NCBI GenBank assembly: GCA_028279345.1
Contig: JANQNY010000031.1
Span: 124,001 to 188,000, forward strand
Length of the DNA: 64,000 bases
Direction: 5' to 3'
Origin: Geminicoccaceae bacterium
Lineage (GTDB): Bacteria > Pseudomonadota > Alphaproteobacteria > Geminicoccales > Geminicoccaceae
Below, in pieces: positions 57,160-64,000 of the stretch. The notes below the pieces were generated by a model, which saw only the letters and a program-made list of their open reading frames with translations, did no database searches and was not told the origin of the DNA. Numbering within the stretch: the first letter of the stretch is position 1; each line of letters opens with the position of its first letter. The position numbers and the translations under genes are program-made.

Positions 57160-57935
57160 GGCTCACGGTCTGCCGGCGGGTTGCGCAAGAGCGCGCAGCC
57201 AATCCCAATTGAACCGAGCTGGGTTTGCTGGAGACTCCAGCCCTCGAGAGGGGCGCGCCGGCCCTCGATGTCGTCCAGCGGGCCGTCCAGTTTCTCGAGA
57301 ACGATCCCCTGTTCAACGCCGGACGAGGCGGGGCATTCGCCAGCGTCGGTACCATCGAGCGTGATGCCGCCCTGATGCGCGGCGCAGATGGCGCCGTCGC
57401 AGCCGTGCGTGGATTGCGCAACCCGATCCGCGCCGTCCGAGCGGTGATTGAGCGTTCCCCCCAACACGCTGCTTGCCGGTGGGGGCGCCGAGCGCTTCGC
57501 TGCCGAAGCGGATCTTGTCTTCGAGGCACCGACGTACTTTCAGACGGAACGCCGCCGCGCCGCTCTCGACCTTATACGCGCCGGCGCGACCGCGACTGAA
57601 CAACGCATCCACGGCACCGTCGGGGCGGTTGCGATCGTCACCGAGGGCAGCCTTGCTGCCGCCACGTCGACCGGTGACCGTAACAACAAACTACCTGGTC
57701 GAGCTGGCGACACGCCAATTCCAGGCGCCGGCACCTTCGCCAACGACAGGCTTTGCGCCGTGTCGGCCACAGGGGTTCGGCGAACACTTCATCCGAACCG
57801 TAGCCGCGCATCGCGTTGCTAAGGCGATCGAGTTTGGCGGCCGACCGCTGCGCGCGGCCGTTGCGGAGGCCCTGGCAGCCGTGGTCGAAAGCGGCGACAC
57901 CGGCGGGGTCACGCGGCACCAATTCGGCGGTAGGC
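57160..57935 (+). pseudogene. Frameshifted isoaspartyl peptidase / plant-type asparaginase
   Basis: Broken Ntn-hydrolase gene readable in three consecutive frames. ALDVVQRAVQFLENDPLFNAGRGGAFASVGTIERDAALM lies near 57250-57390. It is followed in the next frame by [57 protein letters not shown] near 57605-57775, which contains the Thr nucleophile of HGTVGAV. The third frame gives [43 protein letters not shown] near 57780-57905. The N-terminal GG-G segment is not recognisable. Two frameshifts and a lost start mean it cannot make a working enzyme. Its 3' end overlaps the aminotransferase gene. Confidence 0.85.
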
Positions 57936-59144
57936 GTCGAGAGCGCAGCGGGTGGCGCCCAGCACCGTCTCGACGTCACTCGTTTGATTGAAGCCATGGA
58001 GGCCAAATCGGATTAGGCCGCGGCGGATCGAGAACCGCACGCCTGTCTGCTGCAGCGTCTGTGCCACCGCATTGAGCGCCGCGTCGTCGGAGGCGTAGGC
58101 GCCGCCGGCACCACGCCGGCCGACGGTGACCATGTGCGTCCGCAAGGCCCGATCCCGCGGCTCGTTGACCGGGAGGCCGAGCGCAGCGATTCCTTCCCGC
58201 AGCGCATCCGCGAACTCGACTGCACGCGCCTCGATCCGCGCAATGCCGACCGCTCCTAGCTGGGCAAGCGCGATGTCGGCGGCGGCGACGCCCGGCCAGT
58301 TGTAGTTGCCGATCTCGAACCGTTCGCCCGTGGGCGCGAAGACGCAATCGTGATGCTCGATCTCGGATTCGTGGCCATCGCCACGAGCGACGCTGTAGCG
58401 CGACACGTAGACGGGCTCGAGCCGATCGAGCCAGGCATCGCGGACGTAAAGGAACCCCAGCCCCGCGGCGCCAAGGAGGTTCTTGGTCGTGGAGGTCGCC
58501 AGTGCGTCGATGAACTCCTCCTCTACGTCGTGGTCGATAACTCCGCAGCTCTGCACCGCATCGACGAGGAAGAGCGCCCCGTGGCGCCGGGCGGCGCCGC
58601 CGAGCCGCCGCAGGTCGGCGCGAAAGCCGGGTGTGAAGGTCACCGACGAAGCTGTGACGATGCGTGTCCGGCCGTCGATGGCGGCCGCCATAGCGTCGGT
58701 GTCGATCTCGAGGCCGCGCGGCGCCACGTCTCGCACCTCGACGCCCAGCCGGGCTAAACGCAACCAGAGGTAGACATTGTTGGGATGCTCGAGCTCGAGA
58801 CAGACGACGACGTTGTCGCCGCTGGCCGGGGCGACCGCGCAGGCAACCGCGTTGAGCCCTTCGGACACGTTCTTGACGACGGCGACCTCGTGGGCCTTTG
58901 CACCGATCAGTCGGGCGAAGCGAGCGCGCGTTCGCCGGAGGACCGGGAAGGCGTCCTCCTTGGCGAAGTCGCCCCCGCAGACCTGCTCGTTGACCCGATT
59001 GGCCGCGTCGCAGGAGGTGCGCGACATGACCCCGATCGAACAGGTATTCAGGTAGGTCCACCGTTCGAAGACCGGGAAGTCCGCGCGAAACCGTGCGAAC
59101 GGCTCGTCCGCCGGCGCGGCAGGGTTGTCGTCGCGATCGTCCAT
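57909..59144 (-). CDS. Class V (NifS/IscS-fold) PLP-dependent aminotransferase
   Basis: PLP enzyme of 411 residues. YLNTCSIGVMSRT is the opening, FLVDAVQSCGVIDHDVEE the Asp-containing cofactor block, and DALATSTTKNLLGAAGLGFLYV contains the Schiff-base Lys. NYNWPGVAAADIAL and GVRFSIRRGLIRFGLHGFNQTSDVE follow. It lacks the Cys loop motif of NifS/IscS desulfurases, so an aminotransferase or lyase role is more likely. It is divergent from a GntR regulator with an operator-like sequence between them. ATG 59153 is an alternative start. Confidence 0.85.
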   Translation of the reverse strand: MDDRDDNPAAPADEPFARFRADFPVFERWTYLNTCSIGVMSRTSCDAANRVNEQVCGGDFAKEDAFPVLRRTRARFARLIGAKAHEVAVVKNVSEGLNAVACAVAPASGDNVVVCLELEHPNNVYLWLRLARLGVEVRDVAPRGLEIDTDAMAAAIDGRTRIVTASSVTFTPGFRADLRRLGGAARRHGALFLVDAVQSCGVIDHDVEEEFIDALATSTTKNLLGAAGLGFLYVRDAWLDRLEPVYVSRYSVARGDGHESEIEHHDCVFAPTGERFEIGNYNWPGVAAADIALAQLGAVGIARIEARAVEFADALREGIAALGLPVNEPRDRALRTHMVTVGRRGAGGAYASDDAALNAVAQTLQQTGVRFSIRRGLIRFGLHGFNQTSDVETVLGATRCALDAYRRIGAA

Positions 59145-59222
59145 GACCGTCATCCAGAGGTTCTGGCGATAGGCTTGCGTCCTCTCCCGACGGATACCAG
59201 TGCGCTTTGATCCTGTTGACAA

Positions 59223-59242
59223 CCGGCATACCGGTATACCAG
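59223..59242. promoter_or_regulatory. Overlapping GntR-type operator, aminotransferase/GntR intergenic region
   Basis: Two near-palindromic 12-mers share a CCGG: CCGGCATACCGG (59223-59234) and CCGGTATACCAG (59231-59242). GGTATACC cores resemble known FCD-GntR operators. The site lies 10 bases before the gntR start and about 80 bases before the divergent aminotransferase, placed to control both. Confidence 0.55.
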
Positions 59243-59251
59243 TCAATCTGG

Positions 59252-59947
59252 ATGATCGAGAACATCGAACTCGAGCGCGACCGGGCCTATCGCGAGCTCC
59301 GGTGCCTCATCCTAGCAGGGCAGTTTCGTTACGACGAAGCCCTCTCGGAACGGGCACTCGGCGGCCTCTTCGGCGTCGGCCGAACGCCGATGCGCGAGGC
59401 GGTGCGGCGCCTCGTCAACGATGGGCTGCTTACCTCGATGCCGGCCCGCGGGGTCTTCGTAAGGCGTCTCGATGGTCGCGAACTCGCCGAGCTGTACGAG
59501 GTGCGCATCGCACTCGAAGGAACGGCTGCGCGGCTCGCAACGCGTCGTGCGACCGCAGACGACATCGCCGTCATGCGGCGCACCGTCGATCTTCTCGATG
59601 CTCAAGACGCCCTTCAGGAGATTCAGGACACTGGCTGGGAGTTGCATCGTCAGATCTTCGCGGCGGCGGGCAATCTCCAACTCTCGCAGATCTACGAGGC
59701 CATCATCAATCGCGTCATCGTCGCCATGCGGATGACGCTGCGCCACGACGCGACACGGGTGAGGCGGACTGTCGACGAGCATCGCGCCATCTTCAGAGCC
59801 ATCACCGAGCGCGAGCCGGACGAGGCGGAACGCCGCATGCGGGAACATCTGGAGGGCGCGCTGCAGAGCCGGCTGCGCATCAGCGGCGAGATCTTCGGGG
59901 AAGTCGCGCCGCACGATCGAGACACTCAACTGGGAGAGGGACCATGA
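59252..59947 (+). CDS. GntR/FCD-family transcriptional regulator
   Basis: Regulator of 231 residues. N-terminal winged HTH (YRELRCLILAGQF, LSERALGGLFGVGRTPMREAVRRLVNDGLLTSMPARGVFVRRL) is followed by a helical FCD ligand domain with ELYEVRIALEGTAARLA, ELHRQIFAAAGN and DEHRAIFRAITERE, where the Asp and three His of the metal/acid-binding pocket lie. FCD ligands are usually organic acids. ATG at 59252 was taken as start. Its stop overlaps aapJ by ATGA, so it probably regulates the amino-acid transporter, the aminotransferase and itself. Confidence 0.9.
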   Translation: MIENIELERDRAYRELRCLILAGQFRYDEALSERALGGLFGVGRTPMREAVRRLVNDGLLTSMPARGVFVRRLDGRELAELYEVRIALEGTAARLATRRATADDIAVMRRTVDLLDAQDALQEIQDTGWELHRQIFAAAGNLQLSQIYEAIINRVIVAMRMTLRHDATRVRRTVDEHRAIFRAITEREPDEAERRMREHLEGALQSRLRISGEIFGEVAPHDRDTQLGEGP

Positions 59948-60972
59948 TCGGACGACTGCTCTTGGGCGTCGCCGCCGCCACCGTGGCAGGCGGCCTGTCG
60001 CCGCCAGCCGCACATGCCGGCCCTTCGCTCGACGCCATTCGGGAGCGTGGCACACTGATCTGCGGGGCCAACGGCAGCCGCGCCGGCTTCTCGCTCGTCA
60101 ACAGCGAGGGCCGCTGGGAAGGCATGGACACAGATGTCTGCCGCGCGGTGGCCACCGCCATCCTGGGTGACGCAGAGAAGGTCGAGTTCGTCAAGGTCAC
60201 GAGCCAGACGCGCTTTCCAGCGCTGCAGACCGGTGAAGTCGACATGCTCGCCGCCAACGTAACCTGGACTCTCACGCGCGACGCCAAGCTGGGTGTCGAT
60301 TTCGTGGCACCAGTCTTCTATGACGGCCAAGGCTTCATGTTGCCCCGCGCCCTCGGCGTGAACAGCGTCGACGAGCTCGACGGGGCCACGGTCTGCGTGC
60401 TTCCCGGCTCGACCTCCGAAAAGGTGGTCAACGACGTTTTCCGGGCGCGCGGGATGACCTACACGCCGGTCGTCATCGAGGATCAGAAGGAACTCAACAA
60501 CGCCTTCTTCGCCGGCCGCTGCGACGCCCAGATCCAATCGACGTCGGGGCTCAGCGCTTCGCGGGCGACGGTTGCGGCGAACCCGGAGGACTACGTCATC
60601 CTCGGCGAGGTCTTCGGGAAGGACCCGATGGGTCCCGTGGTCCGCGAGGACGACGCCGATCTGCGCGACATCGTCGGCTGGAGCGTCTACGCGCTGCAGC
60701 AGGCGGAGGAATTCGGCATCACCTCGGCCAATGTCGAGGAGATGGCGCAGTCCGAGGACCCGGAGATCCTGACGTTCCTGGGTGCGACCGGCGATCTCGG
60801 CGAGGCGCTGGGTCTGAGCCCTGACTGGGCCTCGACGATGATCCAGACCGTCGGAAATTATGGCGAGATCTACGCGCGCTCGTTCGGCGAGCAATCGCCA
60901 TTGCAGCTGGAGCGCGGGCTCAACGCCTTGTGGACGGACGGGGGCCTGCACTACCCGCCGCCATTCAAATAG
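59944..60972 (+). CDS. aapJ: AapJ-like amino-acid ABC transporter binding protein
   Basis: Periplasmic binding protein of 342 residues. A signal peptide ends near AHA (residue 25), followed by LDAIRERGTLICGANG, GFSLVNSEGRWEGMDTDVCRAVATAILGDAEKVEFVKVTSQTRFPALQTGEVDMLAANVTWTLTRDAKLGVDF and CVLPGSTSEK, the AapJ/BztA pattern for broad L-amino-acid uptake. ATG at 59944 overlaps the gntR stop. Confidence 0.93.
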   Translation: MIGRLLLGVAAATVAGGLSPPAAHAGPSLDAIRERGTLICGANGSRAGFSLVNSEGRWEGMDTDVCRAVATAILGDAEKVEFVKVTSQTRFPALQTGEVDMLAANVTWTLTRDAKLGVDFVAPVFYDGQGFMLPRALGVNSVDELDGATVCVLPGSTSEKVVNDVFRARGMTYTPVVIEDQKELNNAFFAGRCDAQIQSTSGLSASRATVAANPEDYVILGEVFGKDPMGPVVREDDADLRDIVGWSVYALQQAEEFGITSANVEEMAQSEDPEILTFLGATGDLGEALGLSPDWASTMIQTVGNYGEIYARSFGEQSPLQLERGLNALWTDGGLHYPPPFK

Positions 60973-61041
60973 GCCGGCAAGCGGTTCCGCCCCGGGCGCG
61001 GGCACGCGCTCGGGGGCACCTGCCGCCTGGAGCGAAGCGGG

Positions 61042-62181
61042 ATGCTCTACAACAAGGCTTGGCGGGCCATCGCCTACCAGCTTCTTGCGATGACACTGGT
61101 GATCGGGACTGGCGTCTACGTTGTCTTGAACCTTCAGGACGCACTCGCTGCGCGCAACATCGCGACTGGCTTCGGTTTCCTGCTGCAGCCTGCGGGCTTC
61201 GCCATCGGCGAGACCCTGCTACCCTTCAATTCGACCGACGCCTTTTGGCGCGCCTACGCCGTCGGCATCACCAACACCCTGTTCGTGAGCGCACTCGCGA
61301 TCGTCGGTGCCACGGTCGTGGGCGTGGCGGTCGCGTTCATGCGCCTCTCGCGGAACCCGCTACTGTCGGGCGTCGGCCGCGCCTATGTCGAGGGCTTCCG
61401 CAACACGCCACAGCTCGTCCAGGTGATCTTCTGGTACGCGCTCGTCACCCGGCTGCCGCATCCGCGCAACCCGTTCGTCCCGGTCGAAGGGGTGCTCGTC
61501 TCGAACCGCGGCCTCTATCTTCCAGCGCCCGCCGAACAGGGTGCCTGGTTCTGGGCGCTGATAGCCGCCTGCCTGGGCCTCCTGCTCGCCCTTGCCTACC
61601 TTCGACACGGCGAACGCCGGCGCCACGAAACGGGACGGGTCCGGCGACTTTGGCCCGGCATGGTACTGCTCGTGCTCGTCCCGCCGCTCTTGGCGTGGTG
61701 GCTTGTGGGTGCGCCCACCGCTTGGGTACGGCCCGAGCTCCAGGGGTTTCGGGTCGTGGGCGGCTTCGTCTTCTCCCCGGAGTTCATCGCGCTGTTCTTG
61801 GGCCTATCGCTCTACATCGCCGCATTCATCGCCGAGATCGTCCGCGCCGGGCTCAACGCGGTCTCGCAAGGGCAACGCGAAGCCGCTCGTGCGCTGGGCC
61901 TCAAGGCCTGGCAGATCCAGCGTCTCGTCGTCGTGCCGCAGGCGTTGCGCGTCATCGTGCCACCGGCGACGGCGCAGTATGTGAGCCTTGTAAAGAACAG
62001 TTCGCTCGGCGTCGCGATTGGGTATCCGGAGCTCTTCAACGTCAACAACACGATTCTCACCCTGAGCGGCCACGTGCTCGAAGCGATCGCCATCATGATG
62101 GCCGTCTACCTGTCGATCAGCCTCGCCGTAAGCGCGATGATGAACGCCTACAACCGTTCCGTTCAGGTGCAGGAACGCTAG
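61042..62181 (+). CDS. aapQ: AapQ-like amino-acid ABC transporter permease
   Basis: Permease of 379 residues with about eight helices. RAYAVGITNTLFVSALAIVGATVVGVAVAFMRLS, GFRNTPQLVQVIFWY, the large periplasmic loop, and EIVRAGLNAVSQGQREAARALGLKAWQIQRLVVVPQALRVIVPPATAQYVSLVKNSSLGVAIGYPEL, which includes the EAA motif, match AapQ/BztB. It follows aapJ by 69 nt and precedes aapM by 3 nt. Confidence 0.93.
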   Translation: MLYNKAWRAIAYQLLAMTLVIGTGVYVVLNLQDALAARNIATGFGFLLQPAGFAIGETLLPFNSTDAFWRAYAVGITNTLFVSALAIVGATVVGVAVAFMRLSRNPLLSGVGRAYVEGFRNTPQLVQVIFWYALVTRLPHPRNPFVPVEGVLVSNRGLYLPAPAEQGAWFWALIAACLGLLLALAYLRHGERRRHETGRVRRLWPGMVLLVLVPPLLAWWLVGAPTAWVRPELQGFRVVGGFVFSPEFIALFLGLSLYIAAFIAEIVRAGLNAVSQGQREAARALGLKAWQIQRLVVVPQALRVIVPPATAQYVSLVKNSSLGVAIGYPELFNVNNTILTLSGHVLEAIAIMMAVYLSISLAVSAMMNAYNRSVQVQER

Positions 62182-62184
62182 GCC

Positions 62185-63267
62185 GTGGCAGAGGCGAGCT
62201 TGCGGATGGCCCCAAGGCCGCCCGGCGCGGTGTCGGCGTTGCGCGAGCGCTTGTTCGGCTCGCGCCGGCAAGGGCTCTTGACGGTCGTCGCGGGCTTCGC
62301 CCTGGCCTGGGTGGCCTGGCAGCTTGTTCGTTGGGCCGTCCTCGACGCCGTGGGCCCGGGCGGCACTTCACAAGCCTGCGCGGCAGCAAGCGGCGCTTGC
62401 TGGGCGATCGTCGGGGAGAAGTGGCGGTTAATTCTGTTCGGGACCTATCCACTCGAAGAGCAGTGGCGAGCGATGCTGGCTTCGGGACTGATGTTGGCGG
62501 GCGCCGCGTTGAGCGGCATCCCCCGGCTTTGGTCGGCGCGGCTCGCTGCCTTTTGGGCCGTGTTGTTGGGGCTCGTCCTCGTCCTGATGGCAGGCGGCGT
62601 CGCCGGCCTGCCCGAGGTCGGCACCAACGCGTGGGGCGGTCTGCCGCTGACCCTCATCCTCTTCTGTTGTACCGTCACGACGGGACTACCCCTGGCCATC
62701 TTGCTCGCGCTCGGCCGCCGCAGCGACATGCCCGTGGTCCGCGCCATCTGCGTGACGCTCATCGAGGTCATCCGCGGCGTGCCGTTGATCGCGGTGCTGT
62801 TCATGGCCTCATTGATCATCCCGTTGTTCCTGCCGACCGACCTGACCGTCGACAAGCTGCTCCGCGCCCAGATCGGCATGACGCTGTTCTTCGGCGCCTA
62901 CGCTGCGGAGGTCGTTCGCGGCGGCCTGCAGGCGATCGGGACAGGCCAATACGACGCTGCGGACGCGCTCGGCCTCGGCTACTGGAGCAAGATGCGCCTA
63001 GTGGTACTGCCGCAGGCACTCACCCACGTCCTGCCGGCGCTGATGAACGACATTCTCCGCGCCTTCAAGAACACGACATTCGTCAGCATTGTGGGCCTCT
63101 TCGACATCCTCGGGGCGACGAAGACGGCGATTGCCGATCCCAATTGGATCAAGTACGCGCCCGAGGCATACATCTTCATCCTTGTCGTATTTCTCTTGTT
63201 CTGCACGGCGATGTCGGCCTACGGCCAATGGCTGGAGCGGCGTCTCGAACATGCGGACAAGCTCTGA
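62185..63267 (+). CDS. aapM: AapM-like amino-acid ABC transporter permease
   Basis: Permease of 360 residues with about eight helices. GGLPLTLILFCCTVTTGLPLAILLALGRRSDMPVVRAICVTLIEVIRGVPLIAVLFMAS and EVVRGGLQAIGTGQYDAADALGLGYWSKMRLVVLPQALTHVLPALMNDILRAFKNTTFVSIVGLFDIL carry the EAA loop. GTG start at 62185. The expected aapP ATPase gene does not follow; a recombinase scar lies there instead. Confidence 0.93.
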   Translation: MAEASLRMAPRPPGAVSALRERLFGSRRQGLLTVVAGFALAWVAWQLVRWAVLDAVGPGGTSQACAAASGACWAIVGEKWRLILFGTYPLEEQWRAMLASGLMLAGAALSGIPRLWSARLAAFWAVLLGLVLVLMAGGVAGLPEVGTNAWGGLPLTLILFCCTVTTGLPLAILLALGRRSDMPVVRAICVTLIEVIRGVPLIAVLFMASLIIPLFLPTDLTVDKLLRAQIGMTLFFGAYAAEVVRGGLQAIGTGQYDAADALGLGYWSKMRLVVLPQALTHVLPALMNDILRAFKNTTFVSIVGLFDILGATKTAIADPNWIKYAPEAYIFILVVFLLFCTAMSAYGQWLERRLEHADKL

Positions 63268-63279
63268 CGCGGATGGCTG

Positions 63280-63420
63280 AGCGCTGATCCTGGCTACACG
63301 CGGGTGCCCACTCAGGTCGAGAAACTTGAGGACCAGGCCGACGCCCTGACCACTGCCGGTGCTGAGTGCATCTTTGCCGATCGTATCGCCGGCACGCTCG
63401 GGCGCCGCCCGCGGCGCGCG
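63280..63420 (+). pseudogene. Tn3-type serine resolvase remnant
   Basis: About 45 residues resemble the N-terminus of serine recombinases: GYTRVPTQVEKLEDQADALTTAGAECIFADRIAGTLGRRP aligns with the GYxRVSTxxQ...L..Q.DAL..AGCERIF.D..SG...RP pattern. The catalytic Ser of RVST is Pro here, and homology stops after GRRP. No other transposon part is seen. It lies directly after aapM. Confidence 0.75.
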
Positions 63421-63475: not shown

Positions 63476-64000
63476 TCAATCCGGCGGGTGGTGTACGAGT
63501 TCCGACGCGAAAGCGTTGAAGGCGACCAGTGTCGGCCGCGGACTCGTCCTCAGAATAGCGGCAGCCGCGGGACATAGCGGACCGAAGCGTTTGGGCTCGA
63601 GCCCCAGTTGCGTCTCGAGCGTGGCGCGTATGACGCCGCCATGGGCGAAGATCAGGTTCGGCCCGATGCGCGGATCGAGGTGCCGCTCGAGCGCGCCGGC
63701 GGCACGCTCGCAGAACGCGCGCCACGGCTCACCGCCCGCTGGGGTGTAGGCCCCACATCGCCAGGCGGCGTAACGCTTTCCATGGAGCGCCATCAGCGTC
63801 GCGATCTCCGCGCCCTCCCAGACGCCCACGCCGATCTCGCGTAGCCCCGGCTCGAGCGTAATCGGCGCCGAGATCGCTAGAGCCGCGGTCTCGTACGCGC
63901 GGGCTAGGTCGGAGGCGACGACGCGCCTGAACCTGATGCCGGCAAGCTGTGGACGGAGAGCCGCGGCCTGGGCTCGGCCGGCAGCGGAGAGCGGGATGTC
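63476..64000 (-). CDS. Histidine phosphatase family protein (3' part)
   Basis: Partial protein of 174 residues continuing beyond the right edge. DIPLSAAGRAQAAALRPQLAGIRFRRVVASDLARAYETAALA matches the region just after the RHG motif of phosphoglycerate-mutase-like phosphatases. PGLREIGVGVWEGAEI follows, and NLIFAHGGVIRATLETQLGL holds the second catalytic His. The RHG nucleophile is outside the window. Substrate unknown; cobalamin and sugar-phosphate phosphatases share this pattern. Confidence 0.8.
   Translation of the reverse strand, partial: DIPLSAAGRAQAAALRPQLAGIRFRRVVASDLARAYETAALAISAPITLEPGLREIGVGVWEGAEIATLMALHGKRYAAWRCGAYTPAGGEPWRAFCERAAGALERHLDPRIGPNLIFAHGGVIRATLETQLGLEPKRFGPLCPAAAAILRTSPRPTLVAFNAFASELVHHPPD

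Follow-up and report, generated by a model that had tools for sequence, protein, structure and literature searches.

The window analysed here, a 64,000-nucleotide stretch of the genome of a Geminicoccaceae bacterium (assembly GCA_028279345.1, contig JANQNY010000031.1, positions 124,001 to 188,000 of the forward strand), carries the genes aapJ, aapQ and aapM for the binding protein and the two permeases of a polar amino-acid importer of the ATP-binding cassette (ABC) type, but not the gene for its ATPase, aapP. We propose that this importer probably keeps working, after loss of the cognate aapP, through an AapP shared with a second, complete aapJQMP operon found on contig C81 of the same genome. 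The locus is a second aap-type amino-acid importer, of a subfamily whose clusters also carry a class V aminotransferase gene and, in some cases, a GntR regulator gene; sequence comparison shows that its cognate aapP was deleted in this lineage. The gap between aapM and a convergent cobC-like gene now contains what is left, in decayed form, of the 5′ end of a serine recombinase gene of plasmid type. The C81 AapP, whose fit was judged by similarity, would dock on the AapQ and AapM of the window and power the importer in trans and, being shared as a motor, it would serve two permeases.

A preliminary description of this DNA had proposed an aapJQM set without aapP and a recombinase scar in its place. 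The set is as proposed: the three frames are intact, with 0 stops and 0 frameshifts over 3.2 kb, and no ATPase gene follows aapM, the next gene being the cobC-like phosphatase on the minus strand. Since it has no aapP, we do not count the locus among complete AapJQMP systems. A search of the gap for a remnant of aapP gave one antisense match (33% identity, E 0.006 for the 850-base target) that overlaps the recombinase relic and was taken as chance. For comparison we used 59 loci of relatives, which are the best-scoring matches with loci given and not a random sample; loci of the window's own genome and second copies were excluded, some of the aapM matches are partial, and the aapM match listing has 54 places including the window's own, with the locus given for only part of them. 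In 54 of the 59 loci aapP lies on the same strand, its match starting 36-140 bp past the aapM match; another gene separates aapM and aapP in one (G329), and no aapP was found beside aapM in four (G011 on contig C106, G034, G207 and G378). The intervening gene in G329 (locus L095, contig C1, 8283-9539) encodes a pyridoxal-phosphate enzyme that by eye resembles cystathionine lyase.

The comparison of synteny suggested in the preliminary description shows that in the nearest clade aapP directly follows aapM in all five other clusters (G211, G354, G117, G030 and G074). The window AapQ and AapM nest within this aminotransferase-linked clade with support of 100/99 in a tree computed with a non-mixture model, for which a long-branch warning applies (L089 with L090, L041 with L196), and the window falls in this clade also in a mixture-model tree from which L162-L164 were absent. 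The final tree was built without L052 (long branch), L095 (fused Q/M frame) and L064, L125 and L127 (Q missing or incomplete), and L197 was not added. Because the five nearest clusters keep aapP, its absence from the window is best read as a lineage-specific loss, and the prediction that the permease would need another ATPase is thereby supported. The cobC-like neighbour had matches at E <= 1e-20 in only 4 of 31 family genomes, the window's own included, and the other three are 37-42% identical; hence there is no syntenic empty site to compare. A further scan of genome contigs yielded two loci, both with aapP.

The assembled genome spans 4.4 Mb in 87 contigs at a completeness of 97.16% and contains 132 AapP-like matches at E <= 0.001, of which only three reach 50% identity: the C81 AapP itself (100%, the query) and ATPases on C77 (55%) and C55 (51%), each beside its own permeases. 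The orphan aapP that the preliminary description suggested looking for was thus not found in the assembly among AapP-like genes of at least 50% identity; what the genome holds instead is the complete aapJQMP of C81. In the C81 AapP the Walker A, signature and Walker B stretches look intact by eye. Furthermore, the AapPs of the sister clusters are 60-69% identical to the C81 AapP versus 45-55% to the C77 and C55 ATPases. The ATPase most likely used by the window importer would be the C81 AapP, to judge from these similarities. The AapM frame of the C81 operon (L041, 6515-7852) is 445 amino acids long, as against about 350-390 in most relatives, and that of G001, of the same genus, is similar (449 amino acids).

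Loss of linked aapP is not confined to the window. It is missing beside aapJQM in 7 of 62 relatives' loci (the four named above and those of G757, G506 and G715), and none of these seven holds a recombinase relic, so a scar is not needed for aapP to be absent. The span seen at these loci is 1.5 kb in G207 (from aapM to the contig end), 5.8 kb in G378 and at least 7 kb in the other five. Together with the window they require three changes on the tree, and their origin as one old clade was ruled out (approximately unbiased test, p-AU 5.7e-7). The congeneric genomes G757, G506 and G715 are in the same state as the window genome, with a complete aapJQMP and an aapP-less aapJQM, and all 11 of their AapP-like genes (E <= 1e-75) adjoin permease matches; G715 is a single contig. 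In all three, aapJ lies a few kb from the aapP-less aapQM (L162, L163, L164) and on the opposite strand. The aapP-less genes of these three genomes are under purifying selection: pairwise ratios of nonsynonymous to synonymous substitution rates (dN/dS), computed with our own Nei-Gojobori script, were 0.065-0.075 for aapJ, 0.11-0.18 for aapQ and 0.07-0.10 for aapM, and those of the complete operon were 0.07-0.15, 0.13-0.21 and 0.11-0.25, respectively.

In G207 and G378, two genomes of one genus, a lone aapP adjoins a gene that by eye is metC-like, and aapJQM lies on another contig. The G207 gene (L159, contig C142, 5336-6103) is 80% identical to the C81 AapP and has no aap permease within 14 kb; that of G378 (L160, contig C430, 2083-2850) is 79% identical and likewise without an aap permease, on a contig of only 3.2 kb. 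The preliminary description had held that its scar scenario would be contradicted by relatives that have no scar, lack aapP at this locus and keep it elsewhere. Such relatives exist in the distant G207 and G378, and none was seen in the window's own clade. As to the remaining loci, permeases adjoin all three further AapP-like genes (61-72% identity) of G011, a genome 70% complete, and in G034 (77% complete) no AapP above 56% was found. A broader claim, to which we give slightly less than an even chance, is that AapP acts as a shared motor across the class: accessory permeases would have lost their linked aapP at least three times while selection on them was kept, and would be powered in trans by the AapP of the main operon or by a free-standing one. 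If so, the activity of an accessory permease would be tied to that of the main amino-acid importer, and a shared motor in polar amino-acid importers would explain permease operons that look incomplete. It is this recurrent loss of the linked aapP, under continued selection on the permease, that deserves testing. An operon without an ATPase gene should not be called dead on gene content alone.

The integrity of the window permeases was scored at columns conserved in at least 95% of the remaining alignment rows. AapQ deviates at 3 of 60 such columns (rank 9 of 59 from the most deviant) and AapM at 6 of 76 (rank 5 of 63). In the sisters that bear aapP the corresponding deviations in AapQ are 9/62 (G211), 6/63 (G354), 4/61 (G117) and 3/59 (G030), and in AapM 8/75, 7/75, 3/74 and 4/74 in the same order. 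The window permeases are within the range of these four sisters, and the whole subfamily is divergent, as the four deviate at 3-9 columns in AapQ and 3-8 in AapM against a median of 1. The suggestion that the permease might be inactive is therefore not supported, and it is also hard to hold because aapP-less permeases elsewhere are kept under purifying selection.

Several points weigh against a working importer driven by the C81 AapP. The six deviations of the window AapM are above the all-row median of 1, and its EAA loop carries the substitution E257D, with D in none of the 62 other rows (61 E, 1 A); the EAA loop is the part of the permease that docks on the ATPase. Set against this, DAA is likewise found in the AapQ of two sisters that bear aapP, and the AapM row with A comes with an aapP. 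The window copy has no close relative and the dN/dS values come from other genomes; the aapP-less loci of G757, G506 and G715 are not orthologues of that in the window, and between G207 and G378 the aapP-less AapQ has a higher dN/dS of 0.32, with 0.18 for AapM. In addition, the sister clusters have AapPs that have moved away in sequence from the canonical one, so that the fit of the C81 AapP could be poor, and in a genome 97.16% complete in 87 contigs an orphan aapP may lie in an assembly gap.

The recombinase relic at the aapP position is real and decayed. The preliminary description was right about its identity and about the change of Ser to Pro; its figures need correction, as the fragment has 43 codons, not 45, and starts 16 bp, not about 12, after the aapM stop. 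In-frame homology covers codons 4-43 (63292-63411), and by eye the likeness at DNA level extends back to a start codon at 63284, one base short near the start. The match to PF00239 (E 0.0016, 18.9 bits) is below the Pfam cut-off of 23.3 bits. In a tblastn search of plasmids (7.3 billion bases) the relic gave a best E of 2e-6, and the best-ranked alphaproteobacterial plasmid recombinases are 54-60% identical to it over 40-46 residues. Its alignment score of 117 compares with maxima of 59 among 500 dinucleotide shuffles and 58 among 400 random window pieces; the four query recombinases of the shuffle test were chosen through the plasmid search, and the plasmid E-value is the independent test. 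On the plasmid search and these score comparisons a chance match was rejected.

Against the four small serine recombinases compared, from plasmids of Paracoccus, Phaeobacter and others, the relic is 57-60% identical over codons 4-43. Of these 40 positions 26 are invariant in the four, and the relic differs at 6 of the 26, the change of Ser to Pro among them. This Ser is the catalytic residue of serine recombinases; at its site PDB chain 3uj3 has Ala, whereas 4m6f has Ser. The N-terminal GYxRVST motif is recognisable, but its Ser reads Pro, and homology stops at codon 43 of about 180, so that, in contrast to the plasmid enzymes, only the 5′ quarter is kept and the full catalytic domain and DNA-binding C-terminus are gone. 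A PF00239 scan of the window's genome did not list the relic even at E <= 1, and no second DNA copy was found in the genome, the next best match having E 0.04. The two full-length recombinases on C55 and C68 were rejected as its parent: they share about half of their residues with the plasmid enzymes and match the relic poorly. Of these two, L030 is 33% identical to the relic over 40 amino acids, and L029 aligns with it only with gaps (27%). Because the full-length recombinases match poorly and there is no second copy, no source element was found. Searches for a target-site duplication or terminal inverted repeats at the relic gave only short, chance-like repeats. The relic itself is of little importance.

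The removal of aapP by a transposon, as the preliminary description had it, is accordingly not shown: the seven other aapP-less loci do without the relic, and neither a target duplication nor a parent element was found. We regard it as evenly balanced whether the relic and the loss are unrelated, an ordinary deletion having removed aapP and the relic being a bystander in a convergent intergenic gap. The clean state of all seven other loci, the want of convincing direct repeats or element ends and the lack of an intact parent in the genome fit a bystander, although the relic sits exactly where aapP would be expected to start, with a spacer of only 16 bp. Such a history is compatible with sharing of the C81 AapP, which leaves the cause of the deletion open. 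A less favourable account is that the transporter was crippled recently, a mobile element having taken aapP and left aapJQM unused, with decay not yet begun. The gene is indeed gone here and kept in all five sisters, a relic lies in the gap, and the E257D change is found in no other of the 63 AapM rows. We nevertheless consider this account rather unlikely, as decay of the relic is far advanced, with 6 of 26 invariant sites changed and a base lost, while the 3.2 kb of aapJQM has neither stop nor frameshift, and independent aapP-less aapJQM sets are under purifying selection.

A move of the cognate aapP to another place in the genome, overlooked because the assembly is incomplete, has a precedent of a kind in G207 and G378, where aapP stands apart from aapJQM, and a completeness of 97.16% leaves room for it; this is improbable, however, given that the three of 132 AapP-like matches that reach 50% identity include no orphan. 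Least credible by far is an importer driven by an unrelated ABC ATPase such as its FbpC-like neighbour. The nearest downstream ABC ATPase (contig C80, 188447-189121) is about 1.2 kb away, but it lies on the opposite strand, is only 37% identical to AapP and by eye sits in what is apparently its own operon of the iron(III) FbpABC type.

Sharing of the C81 AapP would depart from the standard picture of Aap systems. The window shares with the Aap system of Rhizobium leguminosarum the binding protein, the two permeases and the order J-Q-M, and differs from it in having no aapP and in its link to GntR and class V aminotransferase genes; among the aap loci of the class, those that match better have an AapM 43-57% identical to that of the window, a set that does not include the R. 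leguminosarum sequence. ATPase sharing reportedly occurs in heme import, to go by the title of one paper alone. A search of titles, with most subscription journals outside its scope, found no publication on aapJQM without aapP. That picture is of a dedicated AapP dimer (PMC2978685). Multitask ATPases, of which MsmX of Bacillus subtilis is an example, energise several sugar importers whose permease operons, like that of the window, have no ATPase gene of their own and draw the ATPase from elsewhere; those are sugar importers, whereas the window holds a polar amino-acid importer for which we infer sharing (PMC7658222). Candidatus Liberibacter asiaticus resembles the window in having permease or binding proteins without a confident ATPase partner, for which the authors raise both decay and ATPase sharing; in contrast to the window, its Aap system itself is complete (PMC3688454).

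The features of the locus are listed below. The PF00497 match of aapJ scores 61.4 bits against a cut-off of 26.4, both permeases exceed the TIGR01726 cut-off (52.6 and 59.7 bits versus 42.2) as well as that of PF00528, and both AapQ and AapM have the HEQRo 3TM domain and alignable EAA loops. The listed NCBIfam substrate models were all below cut-off for AapJ (best TIGR01096, 172 of 256 bits), which is 62-63% identical to the AapJ of sister clusters G211 and G354. The codon-position G+C of the three genes is similar to that of the adjoining GntR gene, and promoter and terminator scans gave nothing beyond shuffles.

Features of the aapJQM locus and its flanks (window positions)
Feature	Position	Strand	Remarks
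aapJ, solute-binding protein (SBP_bac_3)	59944..60972	+	342 aa, intact; open frame, PF00497 match
aapQ, permease 1	61042..62181	+	379 aa, intact; EAA loop conserved; PF00528, TIGR01726
aapM, permease 2	62185..63267	+	360 aa, GTG start, intact; DAA in the EAA loop
Junction, aapM stop to relic	63268..63283	.	16 bp
Serine recombinase relic, 5′ gene end, invertase/resolvase type	63284..63411	+	catalytic Ser to Pro, 1 base missing near start
GntR/FCD regulator, directly upstream of aapJ	59207..59947	+	start probably at 59252, by eye
Class V aminotransferase (cysteine-desulfurase-like), divergent from GntR	57909..59246	-	partner gene of aap subfamily
cobC-like histidine phosphatase, convergent neighbour	63476..64000, on to 64162	-	

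A homologue of the window's class V aminotransferase (30-55% identity) is linked to the aap genes in all five sister clusters, and in two of them (G354 and G074) a GntR gene also lies upstream of aapJ. Among 385 genomes searched, 12 including the window's own matched the aminotransferase at E <= 1e-75. Four of the others have it beside aapJQMP (G030, G074, G117 and G354), and in the remaining seven no aapJQM was seen within the 3-9 kb inspected on each side. The G211 aminotransferase (33%) falls below this threshold, yet it is linked to the aap cluster. The aminotransferase-linked subfamily may import and process one particular amino compound. In G305, one of the seven (L193, contig C132, 8293-13288), the aminotransferase homologue (45%) has close to it a permease pair of another kind with an AapP-like ATPase (62%), as well as a GntR gene, so that the enzyme may not be tied to a single type of amino-acid importer. 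Moreover, the orientation of the aminotransferase gene differs between the window, where it is divergent from GntR (57909-59246), and G354, where it runs in the same direction as GntR-aapJQMP (L090, 13753-15024); the other flank of the operon is therefore also arranged differently. After the EAA loop, AapM reads FKNT in all six aminotransferase-linked members (the window, L089, L090, L091, L092 and L158); the D of the FKDT type is found in 54 of 63 AapM rows, and N also occurs in three rows outside the aminotransferase-linked clade.

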